Assembly (NCBI GenBank): GCA_905182275.1
Contig: CAJJAU010000005.1
Span: forward strand, 1-56,669
Length of the DNA stretch: 56,669 nt
Direction of reading: 5' to 3'
Source of the DNA: a gamma proteobacterium HTCC2207
Lineage (GTDB): Bacteria; Pseudomonadota; Gammaproteobacteria; Pseudomonadales; Porticoccaceae
In this document: positions 25,289 through 49,804 of the stretch, piece after piece
Position numbering within the stretch: the stretch's first letter is position 1
How the letters are laid out: the number at the start of each line of letters is the position of its first letter
Position numbers and translations under genes: made by a program
Notes under the pieces: generated by a model
The model's database searches: none
What the model saw: only the letters and a program-made list of their open reading frames with translations
What the model was told of the DNA's origin: nothing

Positions 25289-25459
25289 ATGTTTAATTAT
25301 CGATTAGTTGCAACACTACTACTGTTATGTATTGTCGTTTTCCCTCTCGCCATTCAATGGGCGCTGGAGCCCTCTGGACATTGGTTCAGGCTCTTTTTAG
25401 TGTGGGGGTTATTGGTATTTTCCACTTTTATTTTACAGCGTGAGCGAACTAAAAAATGA
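25289..25459 (+). CDS. CbrX-like 56-residue membrane micro-protein coupled to the sensor kinase
   Basis: A short frame (ATG 25289, TGA 25457-25459) whose stop overlaps the start of the following sensor kinase in ATGA, the classic layout for translational coupling. The product has two strongly hydrophobic segments (LVATLLLLCIVVFPLAI about 7-23 and FRLFLVWGLLVFSTFIL about 34-50) and a basic end (QRERTKK). In Pseudomonas putida I recall a small protein, CbrX, encoded just before and overlapping cbrA. Position, size and overlap fit it. Function is unknown; it resembles the small partner subunits of some sodium/solute symporters, which is relevant because CbrA starts with a symporter-like domain. 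Confidence 0.75.
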   Translation: MFNYRLVATLLLLCIVVFPLAIQWALEPSGHWFRLFLVWGLLVFSTFILQRERTKK

Positions 25460-28326
25460 ACAACCAGATCGCTCTTTTTACCCCACTGATCATTGTAATC
25501 GCCTGTCTCATAACACGGAAAATCAGTGCGAGGAGTGACCCGAAAAGCCAAAGTTTTATTTTAGCGCTGGCGCTTTTCGCAAGCACTGGCGTACTCCTAG
25601 CGACAAGCTCTATCGAAATGGCTGGGCGCTACGGCTATACCATGATTTTAGCGTTGTTTGGCTTTTCCTTAGTGTTTGTCATCGCGCCCCTGGTGCTGTT
25701 TCCTATTCGTCGACTCAGCAGCGTAGTCAGACTAGCGACTTCAGTAGATTTCTTGACGTTTCGTTATCGCGGAAAAAGCGTCGCTGTCATCAGTTGCGTG
25801 GCAACTATACTGGCCATTACGCCACTAATTGTTGCCCAGGTACTGGCAGCAGGCTCTTTAGTCAACAGCATTTTTAATGTCGACATCAAACTAATCACCT
25901 GTTTGCTCTTGCTAATTGCGGTTGGATTAACAGTGCGAAAATCAATTAAAATAGGCGGTGTACAGCAACTTAGATGGATAATGGCTGCCGCAGGAATTCT
26001 GCTTATCATCGCATTGAGTCTATCAACATGGGTTGCTGTACATGCAGAATTTGGGAGTATTTCTCAGATGAACTTGTGGGTGATGGACAGCGGACAGCAA
26101 TCAATCATAAAACGTTTTGATTCATCTTATAGTTTATTCATCATTTTCCTGGCTGCTGGCGTTTCTTTTCCCGCTAACTTTAATATGCTTGTCTCTGAAG
26201 CTATAACAGATCGCCAAGCCAGCACAATGTCGTGGGCATACCCTTTATTGATGCTTTTAGCCTGCATACCTATTTTCCCCTTATTGTGGAGCGGGCTATC
26301 GCTGCAAACTAGTTCTACCTTTCAAGAATACCTTTTTGCTTTACCCCTAGCGCTAGAACAGCCAATCATCGCTAGCCTAGGTGCGGCCAGTGTCATTCTT
26401 ATGGCTCTAGCACTTTGTTGCAGCCTCATACTGCTTTCCACAAGGATGATTCTTAATAGTTTTGTATTGCCTGGCAAGGAGCTCTCTGAACCCAAGAATT
26501 TAACGCAGTGGATTGATCGTCGCTACTTTACCATTGCAATCGGCCTGATGATGTTTTGTATTCTGCTAAGTTTTATCGCTAAAAGTCGAAGCATCACCGA
26601 TCTATATCTCGTTGGGTTTGCTGGGTTGGCGCAGCTAATGCCGGGAATGATAGCTGCCATTTACTTGCCCAAGGCCAGTAGACGAGGATTTGTCGCAGGT
26701 CTCTGTGGCGGCATGTCTGTATGGATGATCACTCTCGCACTGCCGCTAATATTTGGTGATTGGTATTGGCAGGTGCCATTAATTGAAAAACCACTACTGT
26801 TTGGTATGCAGGCTTGGGAGGTCTGGGCAATTGAGGCCTTGATACTCAATATAACCCTGTGCACCTTATTTTCTATTTTTAACAAAATGGATGAACAACA
26901 ACAAATCTTTGCCTCCATCTGTATGGCTGACAATGTCTACATACCTGTGCGCGTGGAGATAAATCAAAAAAACATTGCCGAAATAAACCAACAACTACTT
27001 TTAGTACTGGGTAATGAGGCAGATACCGAGATTCAATCAGCACTAACTAGTCTGGGTTTTGACAGTACTGAAACAAGGCCGGGAGCCCTTCGCCAAGTTC
27101 GAGATACCATTAATGCCTCTTTGAATCTGCGTTTTGGAGTACTTGCGGCAGATAAGATAATGAGCCAAGCACTTCCGCTGCCTACCCCCTCTGGTACCCG
27201 ACAAGAAGATATTTTACTCCTTGAATCTGTACTAGCCGTCCACGGAGATCAGTTGACTGGTATTGCTAGCGAACTCAACAAGCTTCGCGTACACCATAGT
27301 GAAATACTGGATAAATTGCCTATTGGTATTATTGCACTTGATCAAAATGGAGAAATTCTAAAGTGGAATGCGGCCATCTCAAACTATACCTGTATAAATG
27401 CGGTTACCGCTTCAGGAAGTTCCCTCCAAGATCTACCTGACCCCTGGAGAACTGAGCTTACTGCATTTATCTCCAGCGGTGATGTGAGCAGAGATAACGT
27501 GCGATTGGATCTCGGTGGCAGCATTCGCTGGTTCAGCTTTCAGAAATCGTCACAGATATCGATGGAAGAAATCAATGATAATATTATTCTGCTAATCGAA
27601 GAAAAAACTCAATCTGTGGTGCTAATCCAAAAAGCAATCGACAATGAACGGCTTGCATCTATGGGTCGGCTCGCTGCTGGAGTTGCTCATGAGATAGGTA
27701 ATCCAGTGACCGGAATAGCCTGTATTGCTCAGAATTTAGAACATGAAACACAGCCGGAACAAATCAGTGAATCCGCTCAGCATATACTTTCGCAAACAGA
27801 TCGTATTAAACGTATCGTTGAATCACTGATTGGTTTTTCACGCGGCGATAAGTTCACTGGACATCATTTCAAGAGGGTTAATTTACATAACGCATGCCAA
27901 GAATCAATTCAGCTTTTAACTCTCGCCGATAATGAATCAACGCTGAGCTTTAGCTGTCATATAGCGACAGAACTAGACATATTGGGTGACCATCACCAAC
28001 TTATCCAAGTCTTTCTGAACCTACTAAGCAATAGCCGAGACGCGTCTCCGCCCAATAGCGAAGTCACCATATTGGCAACTTCAATCGATGATAAAATAAA
28101 GGTGACTATTAATGACTCGGGCACCGGCATCGCAGAAGATCTTCAATCGCAATTGTTTGAGCCCTTTGTTACATCCAAAGATCCAGGGAAAGGCACTGGG
28201 CTGGGCCTCTGGGTTGTGTTCAACCTGGTTAAGGGTCTGGGTGCCGACATTGAAATTTTAAGTCCCGCACAAGATAGCGACTGCGGCACTACTGTTGCCC
28301 TAACTTTTGACAAGTTTGAAGAGTAA
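25456..28326 (+). CDS. cbrA: CbrA-like sensor histidine kinase with SLC5 symporter domain
   Basis: 956-residue hybrid of transporter and sensor kinase, close in length to pseudomonad CbrA (about 980). Residues about 1-480 form 12-13 membrane helices of the sodium:solute symporter type. A linker/STAC-like region, a PAS-like domain (about 610-715, IGIIALDQNGEILKWN), a dimerisation domain with His 745 in GVAHEIGNPVTGIACIAQNL, and an ATPase domain (NDSGTG, GTGLGLWVV) follow. The H-box is the distinctive CbrA version. In Pseudomonas CbrA controls carbon/nitrogen balance and histidine use. It is coupled to the micro-gene upstream; cbrB follows after 70 bases. Confidence 0.9.
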   Translation: MNNQIALFTPLIIVIACLITRKISARSDPKSQSFILALALFASTGVLLATSSIEMAGRYGYTMILALFGFSLVFVIAPLVLFPIRRLSSVVRLATSVDFLTFRYRGKSVAVISCVATILAITPLIVAQVLAAGSLVNSIFNVDIKLITCLLLLIAVGLTVRKSIKIGGVQQLRWIMAAAGILLIIALSLSTWVAVHAEFGSISQMNLWVMDSGQQSIIKRFDSSYSLFIIFLAAGVSFPANFNMLVSEAITDRQASTMSWAYPLLMLLACIPIFPLLWSGLSLQTSSTFQEYLFALPLALEQPIIASLGAASVILMALALCCSLILLSTRMILNSFVLPGKELSEPKNLTQWIDRRYFTIAIGLMMFCILLSFIAKSRSITDLYLVGFAGLAQLMPGMIAAIYLPKASRRGFVAGLCGGMSVWMITLALPLIFGDWYWQVPLIEKPLLFGMQAWEVWAIEALILNITLCTLFSIFNKMDEQQQIFASICMADNVYIPVRVEINQKNIAEINQQLLLVLGNEADTEIQSALTSLGFDSTETRPGALRQVRDTINASLNLRFGVLAADKIMSQALPLPTPSGTRQEDILLLESVLAVHGDQLTGIASELNKLRVHHSEILDKLPIGIIALDQNGEILKWNAAISNYTCINAVTASGSSLQDLPDPWRTELTAFISSGDVSRDNVRLDLGGSIRWFSFQKSSQISMEEINDNIILLIEEKTQSVVLIQKAIDNERLASMGRLAAGVAHEIGNPVTGIACIAQNLEHETQPEQISESAQHILSQTDRIKRIVESLIGFSRGDKFTGHHFKRVNLHNACQESIQLLTLADNESTLSFSCHIATELDILGDHHQLIQVFLNLLSNSRDASPPNSEVTILATSIDDKIKVTINDSGTGIAEDLQSQLFEPFVTSKDPGKGTGLGLWVVFNLVKGLGADIEILSPAQDSDCGTTVALTFDKFEE

Positions 28327-28396: not shown

Positions 28397-29665
28397 GTGA
28401 ACCGTATCAGTAAAAAAATTTTAGTCGTAGAAGATGAAGAGATCATTCGAATCTCTCTTGTCAAACTACTTGAACGTCATCACTATCAAACCGAACAAGC
28501 AGTCAGTGTTAAAGCAGCCTTAAAAACGTTTAACCTTAATGAATTCGACCTAATTATTAGTGACCTGCGACTTCCAGGAGGCTCTGGCGCAGAGCTCATC
28601 GGCGCTGTTGGTAATGTACCTGTTCTAATTATGACTAGTTTTGCAAGTTTAAGGTCAGCCGTCGATATTATGCGACAAGGCGCGGCTGATTATATTTCTA
28701 AACCCTTCGATCATGAAGAATTAATCAGTTCAGTAAAACGAATCATAGATCATGAGTCTCATAAAAGCTCACCCATCACCACAACTCAAGCCCCTCTTTT
28801 AGGGAATAGCCCTGAAACTCTCGACATTTTAAACACTATTCGCAAAGTAGCACCCACCAACGCCCCGGTGCTAATCGCTGGCGAAACCGGCAGCGGTAAG
28901 CAGGCTATTGCCAGAGCCATTCACCACGCCAGCGCCCTGAGCGACAGGCTGTTTACAGTCATTAATTGCGCAACTGCGTCAGAAGATGAAATCAAACAGT
29001 ATTTTGATCTAGTAACCAAACAAAATGAACCAGCAAGTATTTTTTTAAGAGACCTATGCCAACTTCCAGCTAACTTGCAAGATAATATATTGAAATTGAC
29101 CAAAATCAGTAATGTTCGCTGCGTGGCGTCTACGACGAGAGATTTACATGAACTCTGTGAAATAGGCCTGTTTCGTGAGGATCTCTTACTCGCCATTAAT
29201 GTTGTCCATATAGACGTTCTGCCATTAAGAGCGCGGCTAGCCGATATTGTTCAGTTGACCGACTATTTTTTAGGTCAATTTAGCAACCAACTAAACTGCA
29301 CCGTCACGATATCTAAAGACGGCATGCAGGCGCTGAGTCAAAATACATGGTCGGGCAATATTAAGGAGCTGAAAAATACGCTTTACCAGGCGGCGATTTT
29401 GCTCGAAGCAGGAGAACAAATTTCTCCCGCCCTGTTAGGTTTAAATAATCAATCACGCAGTTCCCTTCAAAAACAGCATCAAACCTTGTTAGCCATGTCT
29501 GCCAATGGTGAAGACGCTCTATCGCTCACCAATTACTTTACGCAATTTGTTTTAGACAACCAAGACGCTATGAGCGAAACCACACTGGCAGAAAAACTAG
29601 GCATTAGCCGAAAGAGCCTTTGGCAACGACGCAACAAACTCGGAATTAGCCGTAAAACGGATTAA
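28397..29665 (+). CDS. cbrB: CbrB-like response regulator with degenerate AAA+ domain
   Basis: 422-residue NtrC-type regulator. Receiver domain 1-120 is intact: acidic pocket E12/D13, phospho-acceptor D56, T80, K102. The AAA+ domain keeps Walker A (GETGSGKQ, 162-169) but is about 30 residues short: between NCA (190) and the Walker B region the GAFTGA sigma-54 contact loop is missing, Walker B reads IFLRDL (215-220) instead of LFLDEI, the loop before sensor I is shortened, and after FREDL the second arginine finger is Ala 266. The Fis-type helix-turn-helix (about 394-416, LAEKLGISRKSLWQRR) closely resembles pseudomonad CbrB. GTG start. It probably regulates DNA without sigma-54, like HupR or TyrR. 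Confidence 0.88.
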   Translation: MNRISKKILVVEDEEIIRISLVKLLERHHYQTEQAVSVKAALKTFNLNEFDLIISDLRLPGGSGAELIGAVGNVPVLIMTSFASLRSAVDIMRQGAADYISKPFDHEELISSVKRIIDHESHKSSPITTTQAPLLGNSPETLDILNTIRKVAPTNAPVLIAGETGSGKQAIARAIHHASALSDRLFTVINCATASEDEIKQYFDLVTKQNEPASIFLRDLCQLPANLQDNILKLTKISNVRCVASTTRDLHELCEIGLFREDLLLAINVVHIDVLPLRARLADIVQLTDYFLGQFSNQLNCTVTISKDGMQALSQNTWSGNIKELKNTLYQAAILLEAGEQISPALLGLNNQSRSSLQKQHQTLLAMSANGEDALSLTNYFTQFVLDNQDAMSETTLAEKLGISRKSLWQRRNKLGISRKTD

Positions 29666-29722
29666 GAACACTTAACAAAAAGCTAAAACCACAGAAATTA
29701 TCATAAAAAGTGTACGAAAGGC

Positions 29723-29751
29723 TTGAAGTGGATAGATTTATAACTGAGAAT
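29723..29751 (+). promoter_or_regulatory. Predicted sigma-70-type promoter of the CrcZ-like RNA
   Basis: TTGAAG (29723-29728) and GAGAAT (29746-29751) are 17 bases apart, each matching 4 of 6 consensus bases. A better -10 alone, TATAAC, sits at 29739-29744 without a -35, which would suit an activator-dependent promoter. I find no GG-N10-GC (-24/-12) element between the end of cbrB and the repeats. Prediction only. Confidence 0.4.
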
Positions 29752-29757
29752 AGGTAT

Positions 29758-29885
29758 TCCACATGTTTTGTGTGGGTAATAATAATAACTAATAATAATA
29801 ATAATGTTGGATTGCGAAAGGGTTTGGTGGCTTAGGCCTCAAAGCTCATTTAAAGGGGTTGTCTTTTGACAGCCCCTTTTGCTTT
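29758..29885 (+). ncRNA. CrcZ-like Hfq/Crc-sequestering small RNA (candidate)
   Basis: A roughly 125-nt transcript predicted in the cbrB-pcnB gap, the position of crcZ in Pseudomonas. It would hold a 5' hairpin (CCACA 29759-29763 / TGTGG 29771-29775), then two A-rich triplet tracts at 29777-29805: four TAA units, a C, and five TAA units. These contain five overlapping AAYAAYAA octamers, the Crc/Hfq target motif, and read as (AAN)4 and (AAN)5 for the Hfq distal face. A 12-bp terminator hairpin closes it. No convincing coding frame spans it. CrcZ of Pseudomonas is longer (about 400 nt) with spaced motifs, so this would be a compact analogue. Ends are estimates. Confidence 0.65.
29852..29885 (+). 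terminator. Intrinsic terminator after the CrcZ-like RNA
   Basis: Stem AAAGGGGTTGTC (29852-29863) pairs with GACAGCCCCTTT (29868-29879) with one G-U pair and a TTTT loop, followed by T and GCTTT. It separates the cbrB/sRNA region from pcnB. The remaining bases to 30001 are the pcnB leader; I see no clear promoter consensus there. Confidence 0.88.
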
Positions 29886-30001
29886 GAAGGGGCCATAATA
29901 TACTCGTAAAGCTACCATGTTCTGCAAAGCTAATAAGTCACACTGAGAGCCCAATCCTCTGTTAAACTGCCTACTCAACAAAGACTATTGGTCAGCAATC
30001 A

Positions 30002-31357
30002 ATGCTTAAGCGCATCATCAATTATTTTGACGATAAAACCCGATCATCAAACCCATCGATTATTGATGGCGCCGCCTACTCTCTAACCGCCAACATGATC
30101 AGTAGAGACGCACGAAAAGTCGTCGAAACTTTACAAAATGCGGGATTTGATGCCTACGTGGTCGGTGGAGCTGTGCGCGACTTACTCCTGGGCATTAAGC
30201 CCAAAGACTTCGATGTAGCGACCAATGCGGAGCCCTCAGAAGTTAAGTCTTTATTTAGACGCTCACGTATCATTGGACGTAGATTCCAAATTGTTCATGT
30301 GCAGTTCAGTCGCGAACTTATCGAAGTAACCACCTTTCGCTCTAATGACCAAGCGAGCCAAGGCGCGGGTAATAAAAACATAGGCCTGAGACAGCAAAGT
30401 AAGACGGGAATGCTAACCCGAGATAATATTTTTGGATCAGTGAATGAAGATGCTAGTCGTCGGGATCTTACGGTGAATGCGCTTTATTACAATCCCAGCG
30501 ACAACAGTATCCACGACTTTACCAGTGGACTGGATGACATTAATAGCCGGACTATCCGAATCATTGGAGACCCGTCTACCCGCTATCGCGAGGATCCAGT
30601 GCGACTTCTTCGCGTAGTCCGATTTGCGGCTAAATTAGGATTCGGCATTGACTCACGTAGCGCAAAGCCTATGAGTAAGTTATCTGCTGATTTAGCTCAG
30701 GTATCCCCACCCCGATTATTTGATGAGACGCTAAAGTTGTTTATGAGCGGAAAAGGCGCGGCAATTTACGCCTTACTGAGAGAATACAAACTGTTCGATT
30801 ATTTAGTACCTCAAGCTAATCGCCTTGCCAATGACGGTAGTAACAATGCTAACTGTTTGTTTGAGCAAGCATTCATAAATACCGACCGTCGTATTAGCTC
30901 AAATCAAAGAGTCACTCCGGCCTTCATCTACGCCGCATTGCTCTGGCCTGCGGTAGAGAAATTGGCCGAGCAGTTAAGGGAAAAAGGAAATTCGGCGAGT
31001 TATGCGCTGAGCAAAGCATCCAGTGACGTTATTTCCAAACAGGTGCATATCACCGCTATTCCAAAACGCTTTACTATCCCAATGCGGGAAATTTGGGATC
31101 TGCAATTACAGTTACCAAGACGCGGAGGCCAGCGTGCGAAACGCTTAGCGGAGAACCCTCGTTTCCGCGCCGGGTATGATTTTATTTTACTGCGCGAACA
31201 AGCAGGTGAAGACCTTGATGGTCTAGGCGAATGGTGGACAAGGTATCAAGAGGTTAGCCCGGAGGAGCAGCAACAGATGGCTGATGAAGCCGGTAAAACT
31301 GTTAAAAAAAGGCGTCGCAGTCGAGGCCCAAGAAAGAACAAAACCTCCGAAGCCTAA
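30002..31357 (+). CDS. pcnB: Poly(A) polymerase I
   Basis: Adds poly(A) tails that promote RNA decay. 451 residues. Nucleotidyltransferase core: VVGGAVRDLLLGIKPKDFDV (about 51-70) with the catalytic DFDV aspartates, GRRFQIVHV, and RRDLTVNALYY; RYREDPVRLLR starts the neck region. A basic C-terminal tail (KKRRRSRGPRKNK) fits RNA binding. It overlaps folK by one base (TAATG). The first 30 residues are variable in the family. Confidence 0.96.
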   Translation: MLKRIINYFDDKTRSSNPSIIDGAAYSLTANMISRDARKVVETLQNAGFDAYVVGGAVRDLLLGIKPKDFDVATNAEPSEVKSLFRRSRIIGRRFQIVHVQFSRELIEVTTFRSNDQASQGAGNKNIGLRQQSKTGMLTRDNIFGSVNEDASRRDLTVNALYYNPSDNSIHDFTSGLDDINSRTIRIIGDPSTRYREDPVRLLRVVRFAAKLGFGIDSRSAKPMSKLSADLAQVSPPRLFDETLKLFMSGKGAAIYALLREYKLFDYLVPQANRLANDGSNNANCLFEQAFINTDRRISSNQRVTPAFIYAALLWPAVEKLAEQLREKGNSASYALSKASSDVISKQVHITAIPKRFTIPMREIWDLQLQLPRRGGQRAKRLAENPRFRAGYDFILLREQAGEDLDGLGEWWTRYQEVSPEEQQQMADEAGKTVKKRRRSRGPRKNKTSEA

Positions 31358-48863: not shown

Positions 48864-49751
48864 ATGACTCTCGCTACGGAGCCTATGCAAAGTCTCAGCT
48901 TACCGTCACCGGCAAAGATTAATCTTTTCCTGCACATTACCGGCCAGCGAGCAAACGGCTATCACGACCTGCAAACCATCTTTCAACTACTCGATTTTGG
49001 CGACAATCTCACTTTTCATTGCAATGGGTCTGGAAAAATACAGTTAAACGGAAATATTGACGGCGTTGATGAAAAAAATAATTTAATTATTCTTGCTGCA
49101 AAATTACTTCAAGCATCAACCGGTTGTGTCAAAGGCTGTATTATCGATTTGGATAAAAAACTACCGCTGGGCGCTGGTTTAGGCGGTGGAAGCAGTAACG
49201 CTGCGACCACGCTTATGGCGCTCAATACCCTTTGGGAATGCGGCCTAACCACTGATGCTTTAGCTGAACTAGGGCAAAAACTCGGTGCCGATGTGCCTGT
49301 TTTTATTCATGGCCAGAGCGCCTTCGCTGAGGGAGTTGGCGAAATATTGACCCCCTTAGAACTGCCAAAAAAGTGGTTTTTGGTCATAACGCCCAACTGC
49401 CAGGTCTCGACTGAGGAAATTTTTTCACATCCTCAATTGACAAGGAACTCTTCACCGATCAAAATACGCGCCCTCTCAGAGGGACAGTACAGAAATGACT
49501 GTCAAGAGGTAGTAGTAAGTCTCTACCCAGCGGTTGAAAAAGCGCTGAAATGGGCAGGTAATTTTGCGGCCCCTCTGATGACTGGAACAGGTGCAAGCGT
49601 ATTTTGTAGCTTTGACAACCGAGCAGATGCCGATAAGGTCCTTGCGCAGTTGCCAGAGCAATGGAGTGGGTTTGTGGCGAGGAGTGTGAATAACTCTCCG
49701 CTACACCTAAAATTGAGTAACTGTTTTACTGGGGCGTCGCCAAGCGGTTAA
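48864..49751 (+). CDS. ispE: 4-diphosphocytidyl-2-C-methyl-D-erythritol kinase
   Basis: GHMP kinase of the non-mevalonate isoprenoid pathway. About 295 residues from the ATG at 48864 (288 from the ATG at 48885). Motifs: [23 protein letters not shown] near the start in parts, the ATP loop [15 protein letters not shown], and [12 protein letters not shown] near the end. The stop TAA lies in the D-loop of tRNA-Gln, so the last seven codons (TGASPSG) are read from tRNA sequence and the two genes overlap by 22 bases. Confidence 0.94.
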
Positions 49752-49804
49752 GGCAACGGGTTTTGATCCCGTCATCGGAGGTTCGATCCCTCCCGCCCCA
49801 GCCA
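49730..49804 (+). tRNA. glnT: tRNA-Gln (anticodon TTG)
   Basis: 75-nt tRNA including encoded CCA (49802-49804). Acceptor TGGGGCG pairs with CGCCCCA, D-stem GCC/GGC, anticodon stem ACGGG/CCCGT with loop TTTTGAT giving anticodon TTG at 49763-49765, T-arm GGAGG-TTCGATC-CCTCC, discriminator G. Position between ispE and prs is conserved in Pseudomonas. Its 5' 22 bases also encode the end of ispE. The gene symbol is nominal. Confidence 0.97.

Follow-up and report, generated by a model that had tools for sequence, protein, structure and literature searches.

The window (the whole 56,669-nt stretch of DNA analysed here) carries genes of the cbrA and cbrB types followed by pcnB, all on the plus strand. 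The cbrB stop lies at 29665 and the pcnB start at 30002, which leaves an intergenic gap of 336 bp; this gap appears to hold a conserved, structured, and apparently free-standing RNA gene of ~125 nt. As the initial annotation had it, the RNA gene sits downstream of cbrB, at the crcZ position. The features of the locus and the evidence for each are as follows.

25456..28326, plus strand: cbrA-type histidine kinase, 956 aa (HATPase_c and HisKA domains)
28397..29665, plus strand: cbrB-type response regulator, 422 aa (receiver, AAA+ remnant, and HTH; GAFTGA loop and second AAA+ loop deleted)
29722..29751, plus strand: putative sigma-70-like promoter, TTGAAG at 29723-29728, 17-nt spacer, GAGAAT at 29746-29751 (conservation)
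29759..29775, plus strand: 5' hairpin of the RNA (a stem of 6 bp when the window copy is folded)
29777..29805, plus strand: AAN run of nine TAA units with five AAYAAYAA octamers (repeat count, shuffles, alignment)
29807..29823, plus strand: conserved block TTGGATTGCGAAAGGGT (GGATGGATTGC in many relatives), a candidate seed (15/17 positions invariant)
29820..29847, plus strand: second hairpin, its size varying among relatives (fold and alignment A1)
29852..29880, plus strand: intrinsic-terminator-like hairpin of 12 bp, the predicted RNA end (fold at 29852-29879, and covariation)
29928..29967, plus strand: conserved stretch before pcnB (26/40 positions invariant vs 4/47 in the preceding spacer)
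30002..31357, plus strand: pcnB, polynucleotide adenylyltransferase (TIGR01942, 498.7 bits)

The nearest named PcnB records are 94%, 91%, and 91% identical to that of the window and place it in the SAR92 clade (Porticoccaceae). Its source, hereafter the own genome, is a 2.0-Mb draft (90.9% complete). Of the 79 other family genomes, 29 have a CbrA relative at E ≤ 1e-60. The window's only Rfam match at gathering level is a tRNA at 49730-49801.

The AAN run is made up of two adjoining blocks, (TAA)4 at 29777-29788 and (TAA)5 at 29790-29804, with octamers starting at 29778, 29781, 29791, 29794, and 29797. The short hairpin, the nine TAA units, and the five octamers that had been described from the letters alone are all present in the gap. 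Five octamers were reached in 0 of 2000 dinucleotide shuffles of the gap, and four within 40 nt in 0 of 500 shuffles of the whole window. Taken by itself, an unbroken AAN stretch as long as the longest one here (15 nt) is no rarity, being reached in 34 of 2000 shuffles; it is therefore the octamer cluster together with its conservation that counts, and not run length alone. The predicted fold of the RNA beats its shuffles (z = -3.69; 2/200 fold equally well). Within predicted folds the unpaired probability of the AAN run is 0.56 in the window and averages 0.77 over 32 sequences, and that of the conserved block is 0.30 and 0.49, respectively.

The ends of the RNA are less obvious to a consensus search. 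The promoter hexamers, TTGAAG-17-GAGAAT, match the consensus at 8/12 positions, with pairs such as TTGATG/TAAAAT and TTGAAC/TACAAT at other SAR92-type loci, and the terminator of the window copy has only four T in a row. A consensus scanner of promoters and terminators called neither the conserved promoter nor the terminator in the window copy, and the three promoter-like sites it did report are close to the chance number (mean 1.2, s.d. 1.0). We call a putative promoter and terminator because both elements are conserved in relatives; the promoter and 12-bp terminator of the initial annotation are thereby supported by comparison, but both were missed by the scanner.

Conservation was assessed in the window and five near relatives (PcnB identity 75-94%). 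Pairwise identity is 0.86 from promoter to terminator, compared with 0.495 in the preceding and 0.445 in the following spacer. The invariant positions number 20/30 in the promoter vs 12/56 in the upstream spacer, 15/17 in the block, and 24/31 in the AAN run. In an alignment of 32 RNAs, 547/567 cells at the AA positions of the run contain A, and 200/284 cells at its third positions contain the majority base. Fixed AA with a free third base is what A-R-N recognition by the Hfq distal face would be expected to produce, and the alignment suggests that the run is under selection, unlike a microsatellite. The sequence of the 5' stem is poorly conserved (0.67), yet 5/5 of its consensus pairs change on both sides, as do 6/11 in the terminator hairpin among the 32 RNAs. 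For the whole structure, 0/500 shuffles reached the covariation score and slid controls were exceeded as well, on all five measures, with the bias in its favour that the structure is the consensus of the same alignment. The gap thus behaves across relatives as was anticipated, with AAN run and terminator kept and the flanks drifting among near relatives. We take the stretch at 29928-29967 to be a probable promoter of pcnB itself, in which case the RNA and the pcnB leader would be distinct; because this stretch is conserved separately, the RNA is probably no leader of pcnB.

The distribution of the RNA was followed with a covariance model, R1. Of 41 named SAR92-type loci (L120-L160), 33 give a full R1 match; the model was built with 31 of these 33, and alignment A1 holds the window and 31 of the 41. 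L132 (106.5 bits) and L158 (88.6 bits), both outside the model's alignment, are matched by it. Contig ends cut L131 (partial match, 27.9 bits) and L138. The remaining six loci (L142, L144 [HTCC2207], L146, L147 [MOLA455], L148, and L150) have no R1 match, and there cbrB, lacking GAFTGA, ends 90 or 167 bases before pcnB. Records of SAR92 strains H231 and H921 carry the RNA, and those of HTCC2207 and MOLA455 do not.

Among 80 family genomes R1 matches 43, in 42 of them just upstream of pcnB; in the other, G043, the pcnB contig ends before the RNA and the match follows cbrA on contig C4. In the order 4/293 genomes match, all in the window's family, which has at least 12 members in that sample. 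All R1 counts are lower bounds, since strict filtering discards weak matches and scores are low for the sigma-54-type relatives. The window's own genus has the RNA in 13/18 sampled genomes; R1 finds none between adjacent cbrB and pcnB in G010, G021, G029, and G048, and in G061 the contig ends inside the RNA. Genus g7 has two tandem copies upstream of pcnB in 6/7 loci (L064, L056, L059, L073, L074, and L063); Crc is present in these genomes, and neither a -24/-12 site nor cbrB was seen at the locus. In the 1.3-Mb g4 genome G003 (L087), neither the RNA nor Crc nor cbrAB was found, and the whole circuit seems lost.

For promoter type and the state of CbrB we tabulated 62 family loci (the window, 60 loci, and L020) out of the 80 family genomes, the other 18 having PcnB missing, partial, or lower-ranked. 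A -24/-12 promoter (TGGCAY-N6-TGC) is present at 15/62 loci, 13 of which have an intact GAFTGA CbrB frame; the other two are G002 (GAFTGA present, frame broken) and G011, the one clear exception, whose CbrB has an internal deletion. G019, with a GAFTGA CbrB, has only a variant -24/-12 site. No such site was found at the 16 other loci with a GAFTGA-less CbrB, at the five with a CbrB frame of 184-200 aa, or at the 25 where cbrB was not seen (G043, G061, and G066 among these being cut by contig ends). The window locus has no TGGCAY-N6-TGC. Its CbrB has the receiver, AAA+, and HTH order of NtrC-type sigma-54 activators and lies beside cbrA, but differs from them in the two deleted loops, lacking the ELFGHEKGAFTGA stretch and the second loop, and its Walker-B-like FLDE has become FLRD. 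GAFTGA is missing in 16/16 genus members with readable cbrB (18 sampled). In G074, G076, G009, G020, and G042, four of which were aligned, the CbrB frame is just 184-200 aa and the AAA+ part is gone. We considered whether the promoter change followed from a loss of rpoN and rejected this, rpoN being present in 78/80 family genomes including that of the window. In genus g4 (e.g. L071 and L075) a GAFTGA CbrB and a -24/-12 promoter occur with no CbrA at E ≤ 1e-60.

CbrB subsites are given in excerpts of PMC6296734 as TGTTAC and GTAACA, 20-25 bp apart centre to centre. A closer-spaced pair, TGTTWC-N5-GTAACA at ≥10/12, lies upstream of the RNA in 10/34 SAR92-type copies (window counted), centred 61.5-81.5 nt before the model start, and also in both g6 genomes. 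The locus of strain H921 (L143) is one that has this pair. In part of the genus, CbrB-type sites of this kind lie upstream of the sigma-70-like promoter, and on a tentative reading CbrB would act there as a sigma-70 regulator. In the window itself a CbrB operator was sought and not found (best 8/12; another scan 7/12, a score reached by 199/200 shuffles), so that CbrB control of the window RNA is unsupported.

A search for crc, which the initial annotation had recommended, gave no Crc-level protein in the own genome, where the sole PF03372 protein found is exodeoxyribonuclease III, and no hit above 29% identity in any of the 18 genus genomes. Two of these (G029 and G074) are single contigs; draft gaps therefore do not explain the missing Crc. 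In the family at large a Crc-like protein (40-48% identical, E < 1e-58) is present in 38/80 genomes. No hit above 31% was obtained in the genomes of g6 (2), g10 (14), or g13 (3), Crc was not found in five g4 genomes (G003, G056, G062, G070, and G077), and 23 of the 43 R1-positive genomes have no Crc-level hit. Genera g5, g7, and g12 keep both Crc and the RNA, with cbrB not seen at the locus and CbrA not found.

Absence of hfq had been named as a point that would speak against the annotated reading; hfq is present in the own genome (G000:C8). The encoded protein (L214) has a VNGIKLQ stretch and F at distal-face position 25, which is Y in E. coli and P. aeruginosa. Three other family Hfqs examined (L031-L033) likewise have F there. 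Hfq Y25D mutants are described in excerpts of PMC4063720.

The idea that the CbrAB-CrcZ-Crc circuit reaches this organism is not supported by these comparisons, as Crc was not found, no -24/-12 promoter was found, and CbrB has lost GAFTGA. For the same reasons "Crc/Hfq target" cannot be what the octamers mean here. Elsewhere the cassette fares differently. In Cellvibrio, Microbulbifer, and Gilvimarinus, a -24/-12 promoter upstream of pcnB is followed by a long AAN-rich region. Outside the SAR92-type group, pcnB is preceded by TGGCAY-N6-TGC at 38 of the 39 named loci (L161-L199); from that promoter to pcnB, with the whole interval counted, 37 loci contain 10-33 AANAANAA sites. Limited to the 28 loci not titled as Pseudomonadaceae genera, the numbers are 27 with the promoter and 26 with at least ten AANAANAA sites. 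Simiduia (L162) lacks both promoter and AAN sites. A Cellvibrionaceae draft (L161:843-1357) shows a -24/-12 promoter followed by the 3' part and no AAN sites, a deletion or an assembly collapse. A carbon-control cassette outside Pseudomonadaceae, as initially proposed, is thus apparently intact in other relatives, but not in the window's organism.

Membership of the window RNA in the Rfam CrcZ family (RF01675) was rejected: it scores 7.9 bits in the window against a gathering score of 95, has 0 matches in the own genome, and reaches at most 18 bits among the matches listed for family loci (11 of 58). Four sub-threshold matches at the RNA position (14.9-18 bits, E 1.2-9.5) are too weak to count. 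At E ≤ 0.001 the Rfam model matches 59/293 order genomes and 24/118 genera; 14 matches exceed the cut-off, confined to two families (f21 and f2), with none in the window's family.

We nonetheless infer from its position and build that the window locus looks descended from a CbrAB-CrcZ cassette. Like CrcZ, CrcY, and CrcX of Pseudomonas and Azotobacter, the RNA lies just after cbrB and before pcnB, has cbrA and cbrB as neighbours, and is an RNA gene with a terminal terminator-like hairpin and A-rich AAN sites. It differs from CrcZ in having one AAN run as compared with six A-rich stretches, the number given in the part of PMC4063720 that deals with CrcZ. It is also shorter (~125 nt vs ~400), has a sigma-70-like promoter in place of the RpoN promoter, and lies in a genome in which no Crc was found. 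At the sequence level it further resembles class II Hfq-dependent sRNAs (MgrR, ChiX), with an ARN-type run, a terminator tail, and a conserved candidate seed; unlike these, its locus looks derived from the CrcZ cassette.

The best explanation of these observations, to which we give a probability of roughly 0.55, is a ~125-nt, CrcZ-derived, Crc-independent Hfq-binding small RNA. The RNA would be transcribed from its own sigma-70-like promoter, carry a 5' hairpin, and end at the intrinsic terminator. Its AAN run at 29777..29805, with about nine triplets, would dock about one Hfq hexamer by occupying the distal face with its six A-R-N pockets. If abundant, the RNA would, like CrcZ but without Crc, prevent Hfq from occupying A-rich ribosome-binding sites. 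In P. aeruginosa, CrcZ titrates Hfq via A-rich stretches, according to excerpts of PMC4063720. Hfq from that organism binds a six-ARN amiE RNA with a Kd of 43.2 nM alone vs 33.9 nM with Crc, in the values excerpted from PMC5815094. Titration by CrcZ, combined with this near-equal affinity of Crc-free Hfq, makes a Crc-free Hfq-binding RNA plausible. A single run amounts to about one hexamer site, compared with the six stretches of CrcZ, and stoichiometric titration would therefore need high expression. Against the explanation as a whole stand the absence of the RNA between adjacent cbrB and pcnB in 6/41 SAR92-type loci and the Rfam CrcZ score of just 7.9 bits; against a pure decoy stand the equally conserved block, the unpaired probability of only 0.56 for the window run, and AAN sites that are not clearly enriched genome-wide.

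These last points, with the low capacity of the RNA, keep alive a base-pairing role, which we hold to be possible but clearly less probable than an Hfq-titrating RNA. It would be a class II sRNA bound by Hfq through its AAN run (distal face) and its terminator tail (proximal face), with the GGATTGCGAAAG block as a seed pairing with mRNAs, the decoy role of CrcZ having been lost. The block is conserved like the run (15/17 and 24/31 invariant), a pure decoy needs no block, and one run suits one hexamer. GGATGGATTGC is common to the family's sigma-54-type RNAs as well (e.g. G011, G022, and G030), and class II sRNAs competing for Hfq are known from E. coli, MgrR being described in excerpts of PMC6239178. 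The predicted folds count against such a seed, as the block is about half unpaired in them on average and less so in the window.

Readings without an acting RNA fare far worse. That the element is a mere terminator and spacer of the cbrAB operon accords with its position just after cbrB; we consider this improbable, because the RNA persists in g5, g7, and g12, where cbrB was not seen at the locus and CbrA was not found, and occurs as tandem copies in most g7 loci. Slightly less probable again is a mini-ORF or leader peptide starting in the conserved block. Copies with GGATGGATTGCGAA read ATG GAT TGC GAA, and the window copy is open for 20 codons from TTG. The codon before GATTGC/GATTAC is, however, TTA, TTT, GTT, or TAT in L123-L127, L129, L153, and L160, the frame length varies, and single-base gaps fall just after the GATTGC core of the block (GGATGGAT copies are read from GAT, not ATG, in our frame listing). 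A chance trinucleotide microsatellite or pcnB leader, the alternative named at the outset, is the least probable of all. The TAA units are indeed repeated and the position is just upstream of pcnB, but near-fixed A positions beside varying third positions, drifting flanks, covarying hairpins, and an octamer count seen in no shuffle disfavour a microsatellite, and the terminator precedes the separately conserved stretch before pcnB.

Candidate targets of an Hfq-titrating RNA were sought in the own genome. A genome-wide search for long AAN sites gave no clear enrichment: AANAAYAAYAAYAA has 12 matches vs 9 for the reversed pattern. One match sits ahead of the gene for a PQQ-dependent methanol/ethanol dehydrogenase (TIGR03075), 23-37 nt from its start codon. 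This run (L208, own genome C20:2993-3006, minus strand) is a candidate Hfq site, and a AATAATAATA-like run precedes the dehydrogenase in 4 of the 18 loci that could be read (own, L218, L219, and L220), of 20 retrieved; as a putative target site it is an anecdote. Another match overlaps the opening codons of a frame of 90 aa (L204), and others lie inside reading frames.

Taken across the family, we tentatively put forward, at less than even odds, that this is a decoy RNA changing its way of working. The CrcZ cassette of SAR92 and sister lineages would have lost Crc, the -24/-12 promoter, and most Hfq sites, while the AAA+ domain of CbrB decayed in parallel (its loops, and in some genomes the whole domain). 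The RNA would survive as a compact, single-hexamer, seed-bearing Hfq RNA and may be a Crc-free regulator of carbon use.

The cbrA-cbrB-crcZ arrangement is described only in Pseudomonas and Azotobacter, according to excerpts of a 2022 review (PMC8871633). The literature we searched, with most subscription journals outside it, holds no report of CrcZ for Cellvibrio or Porticoccaceae and none on small RNAs of SAR92, and two wider searches gave nothing on CrcZ outside Pseudomonadaceae among the matches listed. Apparently the same cassette is now seen in Cellvibrio, Microbulbifer, Gilvimarinus, and others, with a reduced form in SAR92. The strains H231, H921, HTCC2207, and MOLA455 are, we assume, cultivated (in part judged from titles without a MAG label). 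As the genome collection includes strains with the RNA (H231 and H921) and strains without it (HTCC2207 and MOLA455), a test is practical. The SAR92 RNA is a natural case in which to test whether Hfq can be titrated in the absence of Crc, and its locus is one in which to ask how a sigma-54 activator persists after a change of its promoter.
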